Below, piece by piece: positions 4,142 to 24,783 of a DNA stretch of 41,505 nucleotides. The translations under genes and the position numbers were made by a program. The DNA comes from a virus: positions 1-41,505 of IMG/VR virus record IMGVR_UViG_3300005588_000014. The stretch is one strand, 5' to 3'. Every line of letters begins with the position of its first letter. The stretch's first letter is position 1. The notes beneath the pieces were generated by a model, which did not search any database, was not told where the DNA came from, and saw only the letters and a program-made list of their open reading frames with translations.

Positions 4142-4846
4142 TTAATTCTTAACATATTTTTGCAATTTATGGATAAGATTATTATTTACAATATAATCAT
4201 TTCTTGCCTCTAAAGCCTCTTTTTTGGTTTTGAAATATCCTATGACAATCCTTTTCCCATTTACAGATATTCTACTAGAGTATTTATTTATTTTTTCTAC
4301 ATATCCAATACCAGTATACCAGCTACTATTATCTTTTCTTTTTCTTTGGTTGCAGTTTTGAACTACTCTTGTTGCCCATCTGCAATTTTCAGGGCTGTAA
4401 CCGTCATCGTTATTTATCCTATCGATAGAAAGATTATCATTGTATCCATTATTAATAGACCAATTGTAAAAATTTTGAAGACCTTTGTCGCATAACCATT
4501 CTTTACAAACTTTAATGCCTCTCTGACCATAGTTTTTATAATATTTCGAATTTTCTTTATTACACCTGATAATTATTTTTTTATATATATTATAAATTCT
4601 AGTATTAGATAAACCATGAGATGTTACAGATTTTTTTAACTGCTCTTTGTTATAACATCCACAACTTTTAATTCCTTTTCTTCTTAAATCACTTAAAGCT
4701 ACATTTCTATAATTTCCACAATCACATAAACAATAAAACATTCTTGAAATACCACCAGATGGAGATAAATGCTCCTCAACTTCTCTGAATGGGGTTAATC
4801 TACCGTGTTTTATATTTATAATATCTTTTAAATTTATTTTTTTCAT
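4142..4846 (-). CDS. HNH homing endonuclease with zinc-binding and AP2-like domains
   Basis: The 234-residue product has three parts. The first is an N-terminal Cys cluster (CLCDCG near residue 39 and SCGCY near 62) that could bind zinc. The second is a central HNH-type core with NYGQRGIKVCKEWL and LSIDRINNDDGYSPENCRWAT. The third is a C-terminal AP2-like DNA-binding segment with WYTGIGYVEK and GYFKTKKEALEARNDY. Such free-standing nucleases spread by cutting a site in a related phage. The gene is inserted between the capsid gene and the neck genes and has its own promoter, leader structure and terminator. The central core closely resembles that of the gene at 24301-24783, so the two are related. 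Expression may be restrained by the leader described separately. Confidence 0.88.
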   Translation of the reverse strand: MKKINLKDIINIKHGRLTPFREVEEHLSPSGGISRMFYCLCDCGNYRNVALSDLRRKGIKSCGCYNKEQLKKSVTSHGLSNTRIYNIYKKIIIRCNKENSKYYKNYGQRGIKVCKEWLCDKGLQNFYNWSINNGYNDNLSIDRINNDDGYSPENCRWATRVVQNCNQRKRKDNSSWYTGIGYVEKINKYSSRISVNGKRIVIGYFKTKKEALEARNDYIVNNNLIHKLQKYVKN

Positions 4847-7637: not shown

Positions 7638-7666
7638 ATTATATATTTTTTATTTAACTTTGTCAA
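7638..7666 (-). promoter_or_regulatory. Consensus sigma-70 promoter for the capsid genes
   Basis: On the minus strand, TTGACA (7666-7661) and TATAAT (7643-7638) are separated by 17 bases. This is a perfect consensus. It lies just before and against the end of the 7668-8402 gene and 24 bases before the next start codon, so it should boost scaffold, decoration and capsid transcription. Confidence 0.8.
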
Positions 7667-11278: not shown

Positions 11279-11604
11279 GACACCGTATAAGACAAGAGCC
11301 ATAATACAGTAGATGATAAAACACAAAGAAGAAAGATTAATTTGTTTTTATATATAACGGGTGCTTAGTAAAATCTATTTATCAGAAACTATTTGCTCAA
11401 TGAGTAGGCTAGCCATACCTAAGAAACTTGTCTAATTTATTCTGTTTACAGTTGCTTACACCCAAAACAACCAACACTACGGCGTCTTGAATTAATAGTA
11501 GATACATTAGTTTTTATTTATGCCAGATACTAACTCACAAACTGGTTGCTTAGTTTTACTGCTCCTCACAAAGTAAACTATACAATTAAACTTAGAATAT
11601 AGAC
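11279..11604 (-). other. Noncoding terS-terL interval with TGCTTA repeats (possible packaging site)
   Basis: No open reading frame of useful size is present. On the + strand the motif TGCTTA, preceded by GGT, AGT or GGT, recurs at 11362, 11453 and 11547. The steps are 91 and 94 bases. The flanking sequences are alike (ACGGGTGCTTAG, ACAGTTGCTTAC, ACTGGTTGCTTAG). CTCACAAA also occurs twice, at 11534 and 11575. Spaced repeats between the terminase genes could be binding sites for the small terminase. A further possible promoter on the minus strand (TTGTCT at 11606-11601, 18 bases, TATAGT at 11582-11577) starts in the terminator's T run. Confidence 0.35.
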
Positions 11605-12388: not shown

Positions 12389-12418
12389 TTATATTCTCCT
12401 TTTATTAAGTTATACCTT

Positions 12419-12447
12419 ATTATATTATAGTTAATAGCACAATTCAA
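12419..12447 (-). promoter_or_regulatory. Early-type promoter with TTAACTATAA spacer motif
   Basis: On the minus strand, TTGAAT (12447-12442) and TATAAT (12424-12419) are 17 bases apart. The spacer ends GCTATTAACTATAA. Almost the same promoter, including the AAGGTATAACTTAA leader and AAAGGAGAA ribosome site, occurs on the + strand at 27468-27496. Confidence 0.75.
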
Positions 12448-12523
12448 CACTAAAATAAACTAATATTTAACATTATATATTTATCAGTTAGTTAGTTAAC
12501 TTCTTACAGTACAAAAACATAAT

Positions 12524-12552
12524 AAAAAAGACACCTACCGTCGTAAGTGTCT
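12524..12552 (-). terminator. Intrinsic terminator of the tRNA-like RNA
   Basis: On the minus strand a 10-bp stem (AGACACTTAC with GTAGGTGTCT, one G-U) with loop GACG is followed by six T. It ends the RNA unit that starts near 12693. Confidence 0.9.
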
Positions 12553-12693
12553 AAATTTACTTATAAGCGAACATTCTTTTGTATATACATTTTTACTTAT
12601 AAGTATAGGGAATTGAACCCTCCCCGAAACCTCTGACTATGCATTCATCGCTACATAGGTGGAGTTGAACCACTGGGTGCTTACCTAAGCCTA
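12524..12693 (-). ncRNA. Structured RNA of about 170 nt with tRNA-like hairpins
   Basis: The RNA has its own perfect sigma-70 promoter and an intrinsic terminator and contains no plausible gene. In order on the minus strand it shows a GCTT-AGGT-AAGC hairpin, then GTGG-TTCAACT-CCAC (12673-12659, a 7-base loop with CAA where an anticodon would be). Next comes the hairpin CTATGTA-GCGATGAA-TGCATAG (12658-12637), and then AGGG-TTCAATT-CCCT (12621-12607), which looks like a T arm. Together these resemble a class II tRNA(Leu), but the acceptor stem would overlap the -10 box and a 15-base linker is extra. I call it tRNA-like and not a tRNA. The 12-mer TTTACTTATAAG on the + strand recurs at 12556 and 12592, and its palindromic core can pair with itself. 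Confidence 0.65.
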
Positions 12694-12699
12694 GATACT

Positions 12700-12728
12700 A
12701 TTATAATATAAGCTTACAACTTTGTCAA
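12700..12728 (-). promoter_or_regulatory. Perfect consensus promoter of the tRNA-like RNA
   Basis: On the minus strand, TTGACA (12728-12723), a 17-base spacer and TATAAT (12705-12700) match the sigma-70 consensus at every position. Such a promoter in front of a noncoding stretch implies an abundant RNA. Confidence 0.85.
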
Positions 12729-12752
12729 TATGATAACATATATTAAATACCT

Positions 12753-12824
12753 TTAAAGTGATTTCCATAACATGCCTAATCCAAATACTATTAACATAAG
12801 AGGTATTGTATACTCATTAAACAT
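12753..12824 (-). CDS. Possible 23-residue membrane peptide
   Basis: A tiny frame from ATG 12822-12824 to a stop at 12753 encodes 23 residues with a hydrophobic stretch (IPLMLIVFGLGML). An AAAGAAAG stretch could serve as a weak ribosome site. It follows the membrane protein gene at 12842-13120. It may be a real single-pass peptide or chance, as nothing else supports it. Confidence 0.3.
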   Translation of the reverse strand: MFNEYTIPLMLIVFGLGMLWKSL

Positions 12825-12841
12825 TTATAAAACTTTCTTTA

Positions 12842-13120
12842 TTAAATAAATAAACTAATTAACCCATAAAAACCATACATAACCGAGCTTAAAACCATAA
12901 TAACCATGCCTGACATTAAAGATTTAATAGATATGTTATCATCTTTTTCTGTAATCATAAAATATACCATAATCATGACACTTAATAAAGAAATAACACA
13001 TCCAAATATAATTAAGCTCATAAAAACTTTAGATATTAAAGATGGTTCATAATATACAGCTGTTGCACAGCAATTGTTATTCATACTACTTCCAAGCATC
13101 ATTCCCATCGCGTAATTCAT
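12842..13120 (-). CDS. Small membrane protein, two predicted TM segments
   Basis: This 92-residue protein has hydrophobic segments at about residues 31-56 and 69-91, separated by a short charged loop (TEKDDNISIK). The N-terminus is Met- and Asn-rich with a Cys pair. I do not recognise the family. It lies downstream of the small terminase cluster and upstream of the tRNA-like RNA promoter. It could be a lysis or superinfection-exclusion factor, but nothing in the sequence decides this. Confidence 0.55.
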   Translation of the reverse strand: MNYAMGMMLGSSMNNNCCATAVYYEPSLISKVFMSLIIFGCVISLLSVMIMVYFMITEKDDNISIKSLMSGMVIMVLSSVMYGFYGLISLFI

Positions 13121-18244: not shown

Positions 18245-18682
18245 ATGAAAAATTTTGATTATAAAAATTACATATTAAATAATTTTAAATATATTAATGG
18301 CTCTCTTGTGAGGAGTGATAGAAAAAATAGTTTAGGGTCTAAGGACAAAGACGGGTATATTATTTTAAAAATAAAAGGTAAACAGTTTAAATATCATAGA
18401 GTTGTGTGGCTTGTTGTAACAGGAGATTTTCCCAATAATGAGATAGACCATATAAACAGAATTAGGGATGATAATAGATTTGAAAACCTAAGGGACACTT
18501 GTAGATTTGAAAACACTAGAAATCATGGAAAAATAAATAAAGATACAAATGAAAAAGGTATATATATAGATAAAACAAAAGGTCTTAAAAAAAAATATTG
18601 TTTTAAATTTAAATGTAAAACTTTTAGATTTTACTCAATAGAAGATGCAAAAAATGAAAGAAATAAACTATGGAAAATATAA
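18245..18682 (+). CDS. HNH homing endonuclease inserted in the 5' end of erf
   Basis: This 145-residue nuclease has the HNH_3-type core: DGYIILKIKGKQFKYHRVVWLVVTGDFPNNEIDHINRIRDDNRFENLRDTCRFENTRNH, with the catalytic H-R near residue 60 and IDHIN near 80. A short AP2-like C-terminus follows (YCFKFKCKTFRFYSIEDAKNERN). It has its own promoter and AGGAGG site. The 3' end overlaps the start of the present erf gene by 13 bases. A remnant of the old erf start lies just upstream, so the insertion both broke and rebuilt erf. Confidence 0.88.
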   Translation: MKNFDYKNYILNNFKYINGSLVRSDRKNSLGSKDKDGYIILKIKGKQFKYHRVVWLVVTGDFPNNEIDHINRIRDDNRFENLRDTCRFENTRNHGKINKDTNEKGIYIDKTKGLKKKYCFKFKCKTFRFYSIEDAKNERNKLWKI

Positions 18683-23159: not shown

Positions 23160-23810
23160 ATGACAGATAACAGACAAAATACTGGGGACTACAATACTGG
23201 TTACTACAATACTGGTTACTACAATACTGGTTACTACAATACTGGTTACTACAATACTGGTTACTACAATACTGGTTACTACAATACTGGGAACAGGAAT
23301 ACTGGGGACTGGAATACTGGGGACTGGAATACTGGGAACAGGAATACTGGGGACTGGAATACTGGGGACTGGAATACTGGGGACTGGAATACTGGTTACT
23401 GTAATTCAATAACACCAGAGGATATATTAATTTTTAATAAACCTAGCACAAGAGCTACGTGGTATAAAGCTAAAAAGCCTAATTGGTTATATGTTAATTT
23501 AACAGAGTGGGTTAGTGTGGAGAATATGACAGATAGAGAGAAACAGTCTTATCCTGATTATGTTACAACAGGTGGTTATTTAAAACATTATTCATCATTA
23601 AAACATGCTTATATAGATGCTTGGGAGAATACAACGCAAGAAGATAGAGATTTAACAAAAGAATTACCTAACTTTGACCCTGTTGTATTTGAGGAAGTAT
23701 TCGGGTTTAATCCATTTAAAGAAATTACTAAAACTATTATTTTAGATGGTAAAGAGATTAAAATATCAGAAGAAAGCTATAAAGCTTTTAAAGAACAATT
23801 TAAAGATTAA
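23160..23810 (+). CDS. Pentapeptide-repeat protein with C-terminal domain
   Basis: This 216-residue protein has 15 tandem five-residue repeats of the form N-T-G-x-x at residues 7-81 (six NTGYY, six NTGDW or NTGNR units among others). A non-repeated domain of 135 residues follows (IFNKPSTRATWYKAKKPNWLYV onwards). Such N-x-G repeats can form a beta helix, and some pentapeptide proteins mimic DNA. The C-terminal part resembles a DUF found in other phage pentapeptide proteins, though I cannot name it. The ribosome site AAGGAGATATAA is identical to that of ssb and complementary to the small RNA at 27.4 kb. Confidence 0.8.
   Translation: MTDNRQNTGDYNTGYYNTGYYNTGYYNTGYYNTGYYNTGYYNTGNRNTGDWNTGDWNTGNRNTGDWNTGDWNTGDWNTGYCNSITPEDILIFNKPSTRATWYKAKKPNWLYVNLTEWVSVENMTDREKQSYPDYVTTGGYLKHYSSLKHAYIDAWENTTQEDRDLTKELPNFDPVVFEEVFGFNPFKEITKTIILDGKEIKISEESYKAFKEQFKD
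23178..23402 (+). repeat. 15-bp tandem repeats encoding NTGxx
   Basis: Fifteen 15-base units, each starting AATACTGG, encode the pentapeptides. The first block is TTACTAC-type, six near-identical copies. The second is GGACTGG-type with AACAGG variants. The high identity of neighbouring copies suggests recent copy-number change. Confidence 0.9.
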
Positions 23811-24270: not shown

Positions 24271-24300
24271 GTTATTATAATTTAAATGAAAGATATAAAT

Positions 24301-24783
24301 ATGAAAAGAGATTATAGTAGCACTAAGGGTGTAAATAATGGAAATTATAAAACTGGATATGCTGTGAGAAGTGATAATAAAAAAAGACCTAGTTTTTATA
24401 ATATTTGGCAAAATATGAAAGCTAGATGTTTAAACCCTAACCATCCTAAATATCATAGGTATGGAGGTAGAGGAATTAAGGTTTGTAATGAATGGCTTGA
24501 TATAAAAGGTTTTTCTGAATGGGCTTTGAACAATGGATGGGAAGACGGCTTATCTATTGATAGAATTAATAATGATGGAAATTATTGCCCTGAAAATTGC
24601 CAATGGATTACATTATCAGAAAATTCAAAAAAGAAAAGCACTACAAAACTTACAAAGAAAGATGTTATTGAAATGAGAAAATTACATAAAGATGGTTATT
24701 CTATAAATAAAATAGCAAAAATGTATAATGTTTGCTTTTCCACATCAAGATGTGTGATTAAAGATTTAACTCATATATTTTAA
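24301..24783 (+). CDS. HNH homing endonuclease with C-terminal HTH
   Basis: The start is taken at 24301, though an ATG at 24286 is possible. The 160-residue product has the HNH core YGGRGIKVCNEWL and GLSIDRINNDGNYCPENCQWITL. This is close to the nuclease at 4142-4846, so the two share ancestry. A C-terminal helix-turn-helix (LTKKDVIEMRKLHKDGYSINKIAKMYNV) probably adds DNA contact. It sits between ssb and a zinc-protein gene with its own promoter, as a mobile free-standing nuclease would. Confidence 0.86.
   Translation: MKRDYSSTKGVNNGNYKTGYAVRSDNKKRPSFYNIWQNMKARCLNPNHPKYHRYGGRGIKVCNEWLDIKGFSEWALNNGWEDGLSIDRINNDGNYCPENCQWITLSENSKKKSTTKLTKKDVIEMRKLHKDGYSINKIAKMYNVCFSTSRCVIKDLTHIF

Follow-up and report, generated by a model that had tools for sequence, protein, structure and literature searches.

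Phages T4 and T5 encode small RNAs, among them RNA C, RNA D, and rna2, whose annotation gives no function. T4 RNA C (rnaC) and RNA D are small, stable phage RNAs encoded in tRNA clusters, with no function assigned to them; RNA C carries only one canonical T arm, located towards the 3' end, and RNA D carries none, whereas the RNA described here carries two. The T arm of tRNA is recognised by the hallmarks of its loop, namely, T54, T55, C56, R57, and A58 closed by the pair G53-C61, of which the loop TTCAACT is a textbook case, and the elbow formed by the T-loop and the D-loop is the part of tRNA that is read by many enzymes. A precedent for mimicry of this elbow is the T-arm-bearing YrlA RNA, a substrate of tRNA-modifying enzymes that binds PNPase; YrlA RNAs contain a module that resembles the D, T, and acceptor parts of tRNA, are acted upon by TruB and DusA, and tether Rsr to PNPase (PMC8394870). 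Among phages, Y RNAs are reported from mycobacteriophages, and one has been suggested in a Listeria phage (PMC12282133). The large phage RNAs GOLLD and ROOL, which have no assigned function, often lie near tRNA islands (PMC12286853).

T5 rna2 (a misc_RNA, AY692264.1, 32962-33086) resembles the RNA of the present study in being phage-encoded and non-coding, in having a GG-bearing D-like hairpin and two canonical T-loop arms without an anticodon arm, and in having no function assigned. Unlike that RNA, it has an 8-bp covarying acceptor stem and sits within a tRNA array; its conserved core, TGAAAGAATGGTTCNCGTAARTCCGCA, is missing from the present RNA, and the two share no detectable sequence homology. 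YrlA (RF02553) is likewise a small RNA with T-arm-based tRNA mimicry, and differs in having a single tRNA-like module, a Ro-binding stem formed by its 5' and 3' ends, and an rsr partner.

The locus compared here lies in a 41,505-nucleotide stretch of viral DNA, which was analysed as a whole (here referred to as the window, and its RNA as the window RNA). To judge from its sequence, the locus is a real and well-delimited RNA gene. Its anatomy, obtained from a minus-strand reading of 12400-12860 and from folding of the inferred RNA, is as follows:

12700-12728, minus strand: promoter TTGACA-17-TATAAT, a perfect sigma-70 consensus (12/12 consensus bases)
12524-12692, minus strand: inferred transcript of about 169 nt, placed by the positions of promoter and terminator (fold z -2.60)
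12679-12690, minus strand: D-arm-like (or variable-arm-like) hairpin GCTT-AGGT-AAGC, 4 bp with GG in the loop, from the minimum-energy fold (pair probability about 0.6)
12659-12673, minus strand: T arm 1, GTGG-TTCAACT-CCAC, matching GGTTCRANYCC (pair probability 0.76)
12637-12658, minus strand: hairpin CTATGTA-GCGATGAA-TGCATAG, stem of 7 bp (one of them G-U) and loop of 8 nt (pair probability 0.98)
12607-12621, minus strand: T arm 2, AGGG-TTCAATT-CCCT, matching GGTTCRANYCC, with a subthreshold tmRNA T-arm match (pair probability about 0.5)
12558-12605, minus strand: 3' hairpin TACTTATAAG.../...CTTATAAGTA, 10-11 bp, inverted repeat I5 (pair probability 0.86)
12524-12552, minus strand: intrinsic terminator, 10-bp stem (12552-12529) and U run (pair probability 0.86)
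12602-12699, minus strand: possible acceptor-like closing stem AGTAT (12699-12695) / ATACT (12606-12602), seen in the isolated-core fold and not supported

The frame of this gene agrees with the initial annotation, which had noticed a mismatch-free minus-strand promoter followed by about 170 gene-free bases and a 10-bp terminator: the promoter is present at 12728-12700, the terminator stem at 12552-12529 is followed by a T run, and 12524-12740 holds no plausible ORF, with only short, overlapping, unsupported frames between promoter and terminator. Exact TTGACA-17-TATAAT promoters (17-base spacer) occur twice in the whole window, against 0.03 expected. The transcript would start at 12692, a position set 7-8 nt past the -10 box, and its length of about 169 nt would come close to the initial estimate. 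The second perfect promoter (7638-7666, minus strand) has TTGACAAAGTT in common with that of the tRNA-like RNA (7666-7638) and precedes a minus-strand ORF, 7614-6544.

The three hairpins first described were all recovered (12673-12659, 12658-12637, and 12621-12607), and two others, 12690-12679 and 12605-12558, were absent from that description. The first of the three had been taken for an anticodon arm with CAA at the anticodon place, a reading that does not hold: each 7-nt loop, read with the pairs that close it, fits GGTTCRANYCC, which makes the supposed anticodon arm a T arm. Only two matches to GGTTCRANYCC (12671-12661 and 12619-12609, 52 nt start-to-start) occur on either strand of the 41.5-kb window, compared with 0.02 expected, and both are the arms of this RNA; T-loop motifs paired at most 66 nt apart were observed once versus 0.00 expected from shuffles. 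The T stems are only 4 bp each, an unpaired stretch, GUCAGAGGUUUCGGGG, separates the arms, and the 3' hairpin starts one nt past T arm 2. The predicted product resembles tRNA, carries two T arms, and does not decode.

An acceptor enclosing both T arms is possible in the isolated core only. In this 98-nt core, AGTAT/ATACT closes the structure into a cloverleaf, which is the minimum-energy fold of the core. This stem was not adopted as a feature: its 5' strand falls upstream of the inferred start, just after the -10 box, and its pair probability drops to 0 in the longer RNA, as it is outcompeted by the local 3' hairpin that stands in its place. No convincing acceptor stem was seen in the window RNA transcript, nor a CCA end. 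Of 200 shuffles, 198 were less stable than the inferred transcript (z -2.60), a result owed largely to the 3' hairpin and the terminator. Fold stability alone proves little, because no unusual stability was found for the 98-nt core by itself (z +0.5); the strong evidence lies in the sequence, in a pair of T-loop motifs that chance does not account for.

Covariation within the rna2 family provides a test of such structures. A unit in one phage contig (L102, 3709-3827) is homologous to T5 rna2 and matches 413 phage records, mostly of T5-like phages but including the T4-like Acinetobacter phage 133; among the records listed, these relatives are mostly unannotated or labelled as hypothetical protein. 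In an alignment of 13 sequences, 91% of cells are paired across the proposed acceptor, the D-like hairpin, and both T arms, both sides have changed in 16 of 23 pairs, and the covariation score is 0.436, compared with 0.169 in shuffles and no more than 0.084 when the partners are slid. At least one double-T-arm family is therefore a conserved, structured phage RNA. No Rfam 15 family matched at the rna2-type RNA in L102 or L161, and the family would merit an Rfam entry. A partial YrlA match in the L102 phage (29 bits) was set aside, as it lies elsewhere in the contig, away from the double-T RNA. None of five further T5 misc_RNAs from the same region has two T arms by a relaxed T-loop pattern.

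The double-T-arm architecture recurs in unrelated phages. Viral contigs were scanned for two T-loop motifs 36-66 nt apart, and many of the matches listed have full T stems in both arms. Raw pattern counts were rejected as proof of a class, as a scrambled-loop control with the same GG/CC ends was similar in number (26 stretches vs 31 for the T-loop pattern); most control stretches were repeats whose periods, 48 and 54, are multiples of three, and they lack stems. Tests of stem extension and of the acceptor were therefore adopted instead. Both stems reach at least 4 bp in 21 of 28 stretches for the T-loop pattern versus 2 of 21 for the scrambled loop, and a perfect 7-bp Watson-Crick acceptor directly abuts the second T arm in 13 of the 125 double-T-arm units contained in the fetched loci, versus 0.65 in shuffles. 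Under the strict acceptor rule, a tRNA call is absent in 21 of the 26 double-T-arm units listed, several of which are T5-like relatives. Where ARAGORN does make a call, it may be false, with the T-loop read as an anticodon loop: tRNA-Leu(caa) at L107 5644-5730 and L082 4219-4335, and tRNA-Ser(cga) at L028 609-697 and L108 1996-2083 (minus strand). This CAA/CGA misreading of double-T-arm RNAs is systematic and matches the error made on the window RNA in the initial annotation. RNAs of the T5 rna2 kind were defined as short RNAs whose two canonical T-loop arms are separated by about 45-60 nt; the window RNA, at 52 nt from start to start and with a GG hairpin 5' of T arm 1, shares this design. 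Neither phage tRNA mimics with two T arms nor their misreading as tRNA-Leu(CAA)/Ser(CGA) were found described in the searchable literature, which leaves out most subscription journals.

Several of these units have features of their own. An encoded ACCA follows a few of them (L112 and L136), and in L018, L083, and L093 a tandem unit consists of a hairpin with a GGTGAATAT- or GGAGAATTT-type loop and then a T arm, twice. A triple-T-arm unit of Streptococcus agalactiae phages (L052; MK448781.1, 17020-17167) has repeated, unannotated T arms near the portal gene, as in the window; unlike the window RNA, it adjoins a GOLLD RNA and a tRNA-Ser and has an acceptor-like stem. In these phages GOLLD, tRNA-Ser, and the triple-T-arm RNA lie in one unannotated 1.5-kb stretch upstream of the portal gene (L052 259-313 and 529-904, minus strand; MK448781.1, 15753-17303).

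Relatives of the window RNA itself are few. An exact 20-base piece of T arm 1 occurs in only two other IMG/VR contigs, which are identical over the compared stretch, and no real relative of the window RNA came up by blastn in phages, plasmids, or E. coli genomes. Searches with the terminase, portal, and small terminase led only to identical contigs or to contigs without the RNA (L173 and L006), terminase relatives were not found in GTDB genomes, and the capsid had no match in phage records. For the alignment of compensatory changes that had been proposed as a check of the hairpins, these searches gave no diverged homologue, only the identical contigs; the stems of the window RNA are thus predicted ones, which is the main weakness of the case. 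A scan for AAGCANCC joined to a T arm gave 51 stretches, nearly all of them tRNA-Ser genes, which were rejected as relatives. The window RNA joins an older, uncharacterised kind of phage RNA, while its own sequence is known only from this phage.

The identity of the RNA was assessed against tRNA and other RNA families. ARAGORN and Infernal/Rfam, which the initial annotation had named as checks of its tRNA reading, returned 0 tRNA genes in the window and no family at gathering scores (cmscan), and the Rfam tRNA model RF00005 had no match even at E<=10. Permissive thresholds gave nothing credible, i.e., only noise and a 13-nt tmRNA T-arm fragment in T arm 2 (6.9 bits, subthreshold), the only part in which the RNA and tmRNA (RF00023) are alike; a tag reading frame and an acceptor are lacking, and ARAGORN in tmRNA mode finds none. 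The YrlA model (RF02553) was also without a match at E<=10. The RNA is not a tRNA, tmRNA, YrlA, or a member of any Rfam family. A real class II tRNA(Leu) reading CAA is hardly conceivable: the order of the hairpins and the loop sizes fit, but the supposed anticodon loop is a T-loop, the base 3' of the supposed CAA is a C, which makes a poor anticodon loop, a usable acceptor stem and CCA are absent, and only ARAGORN forced to a low threshold yields a tRNA, a tRNA-Ile that was rejected as implausible. Of the earlier proposal of a tRNA(Leu)-derived or tRNA-mimic RNA, the mimic part stands, given two perfect T-loop arms, and the class II derivation does not; the tRNA(Leu) reading was mistaken in its details but correct in its general idea. 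The arms might instead be a functionless relic of tRNA genes, in which decay of an array or integration at tRNA genes left two tRNA 3' ends in tandem, each with a T arm and half of an acceptor. A copy of a tRNA 3' end beside a complete tRNA is expected from integration at tRNA genes, and in 84,980 bacterial and archaeal genomes a pattern of similar spacing yielded 34 stretches, in most of which a complete tRNA precedes a 3'-end copy. AAGCACCCAGTGGTTC also resembles the tRNA-Ser variable arm and adjoining T arm of other phages, a match that is partly forced by the pattern. Such a relic is unlikely here because neither T arm is part of a complete tRNA, the two arms differ in sequence, a tyrosine integrase (PF00589) is absent from the contig, which may be incomplete, and the unit is framed by its own perfect promoter and terminator; furthermore, the bases past each T stem would set A at position 72, unlike in normal tRNAs.

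Two other readings accept a functional transcript. A regulatory small RNA acting by base pairing (or a leader RNA), with T arms for stability only, would fit the presence of an own promoter and terminator, a length of about 170 nt that is typical of small RNAs, the unpaired GUCAGAGGUUUCGGGG between the arms, and a second leader with promoter and terminator that precedes the terminase gene; it leaves the keeping of two canonical T-loops unexplained, and we consider it distinctly unlikely. More improbable still is a Y-RNA-like scaffold, whose T-arm module would recruit PNPase or tRNA-modifying enzymes while the 3' hairpin binds another protein. YrlA is its nearest precedent, as a TruB/DusA substrate and Rsr-PNPase tether (PMC8394870), and phages are known or suggested to carry Y RNAs (mycobacteriophages and a Listeria phage, respectively; PMC12282133). 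Against it, the YrlA model does not match, no TROVE/Rsr protein (PF05731) is encoded in the contig (a host copy is possible), and the window RNA carries two T arms, its 5' and 3' ends not being joined by a long stem.

The best explanation, which we put forward tentatively, is a stand-alone, non-decoding RNA that mimics the tRNA elbow and serves as decoy or bait for a host protein that reads it. Host RNA polymerase would transcribe this non-coding RNA from the consensus promoter and stop at the RNA's own terminator. The product of about 169 nt would be a tRNA mimic that does not decode, with a D-like GG hairpin followed by two canonical T arms and no anticodon arm, in which T arm 2 would abut a helix, much as the T arm stacks on the acceptor stem. 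Each T arm, with the loop of the GG hairpin as its partner, may present a tRNA elbow surface to host proteins, with RNase P, TruB/TrmA, EF-Tu, PNPase, or a tRNA-targeting defence protein as candidate readers. An abundant, nuclease-resistant RNA of this type could then occupy an elbow-reading protein during infection. Without an anticodon loop, the RNA is unlikely to act as a decoy for nucleases that cut anticodons, but it may be one for a protein reading the tRNA elbow.

It would be a further and doubtful step to extend elbow mimicry to a widespread, overlooked class of phage RNAs that are non-decoding, present the elbow twice, are often unannotated or misannotated as tRNA-Leu(CAA) or tRNA-Ser(CGA), and sequester a host tRNA-binding enzyme or a tRNA-targeting defence; such a class would include T5 rna2 and the RNAs of Acinetobacter phage 133, the GOLLD neighbours in Streptococcus, and the window phage. 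The double T arms of rna2 and the window RNA give a concrete elbow-mimicry hypothesis for phage RNAs that lack a function, which is testable at once in T5 and laboratory E. coli, where the retron-Eco7, Septu, PARIS, and PrrC defences are available. Recognition of double T arms also accounts for phage genome annotations in which tRNA-Leu(CAA) or tRNA-Ser(CGA) is called spuriously.

Other features of the window were noted as well. A 520-nt gap (11740-11222, minus strand) precedes the large terminase gene and contains two elements:

11736-11708, minus strand: promoter-like TTGACA-17-TATATT
11654-11606, minus strand: long-loop terminator AATAGCTCTTGAC/GTCGGGAGCTATT with T run, competing with the upstream hairpin GTAGGGAGC/GCTCCTTAC

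Together these look like an attenuator or a second small RNA; Rfam had no match in the gap, and the region as a whole is not unusually stable. The motif (A/G)(C/G)TAAGCA(C/A)CC occurs three times on the minus strand, at 11359-11369 and 11544-11554 in the gap and at 12675-12685 in the tRNA-like RNA. Three ORFs resemble HNH-type homing endonucleases as judged by eye from their translations (4142-4846, minus strand; 18245-18682 and 24286-24783, plus strand). Lastly, the protein encoded at 23160-23810 (plus strand) contains about 15 short repeats of the NTG type (NTGYYNTGDW...).
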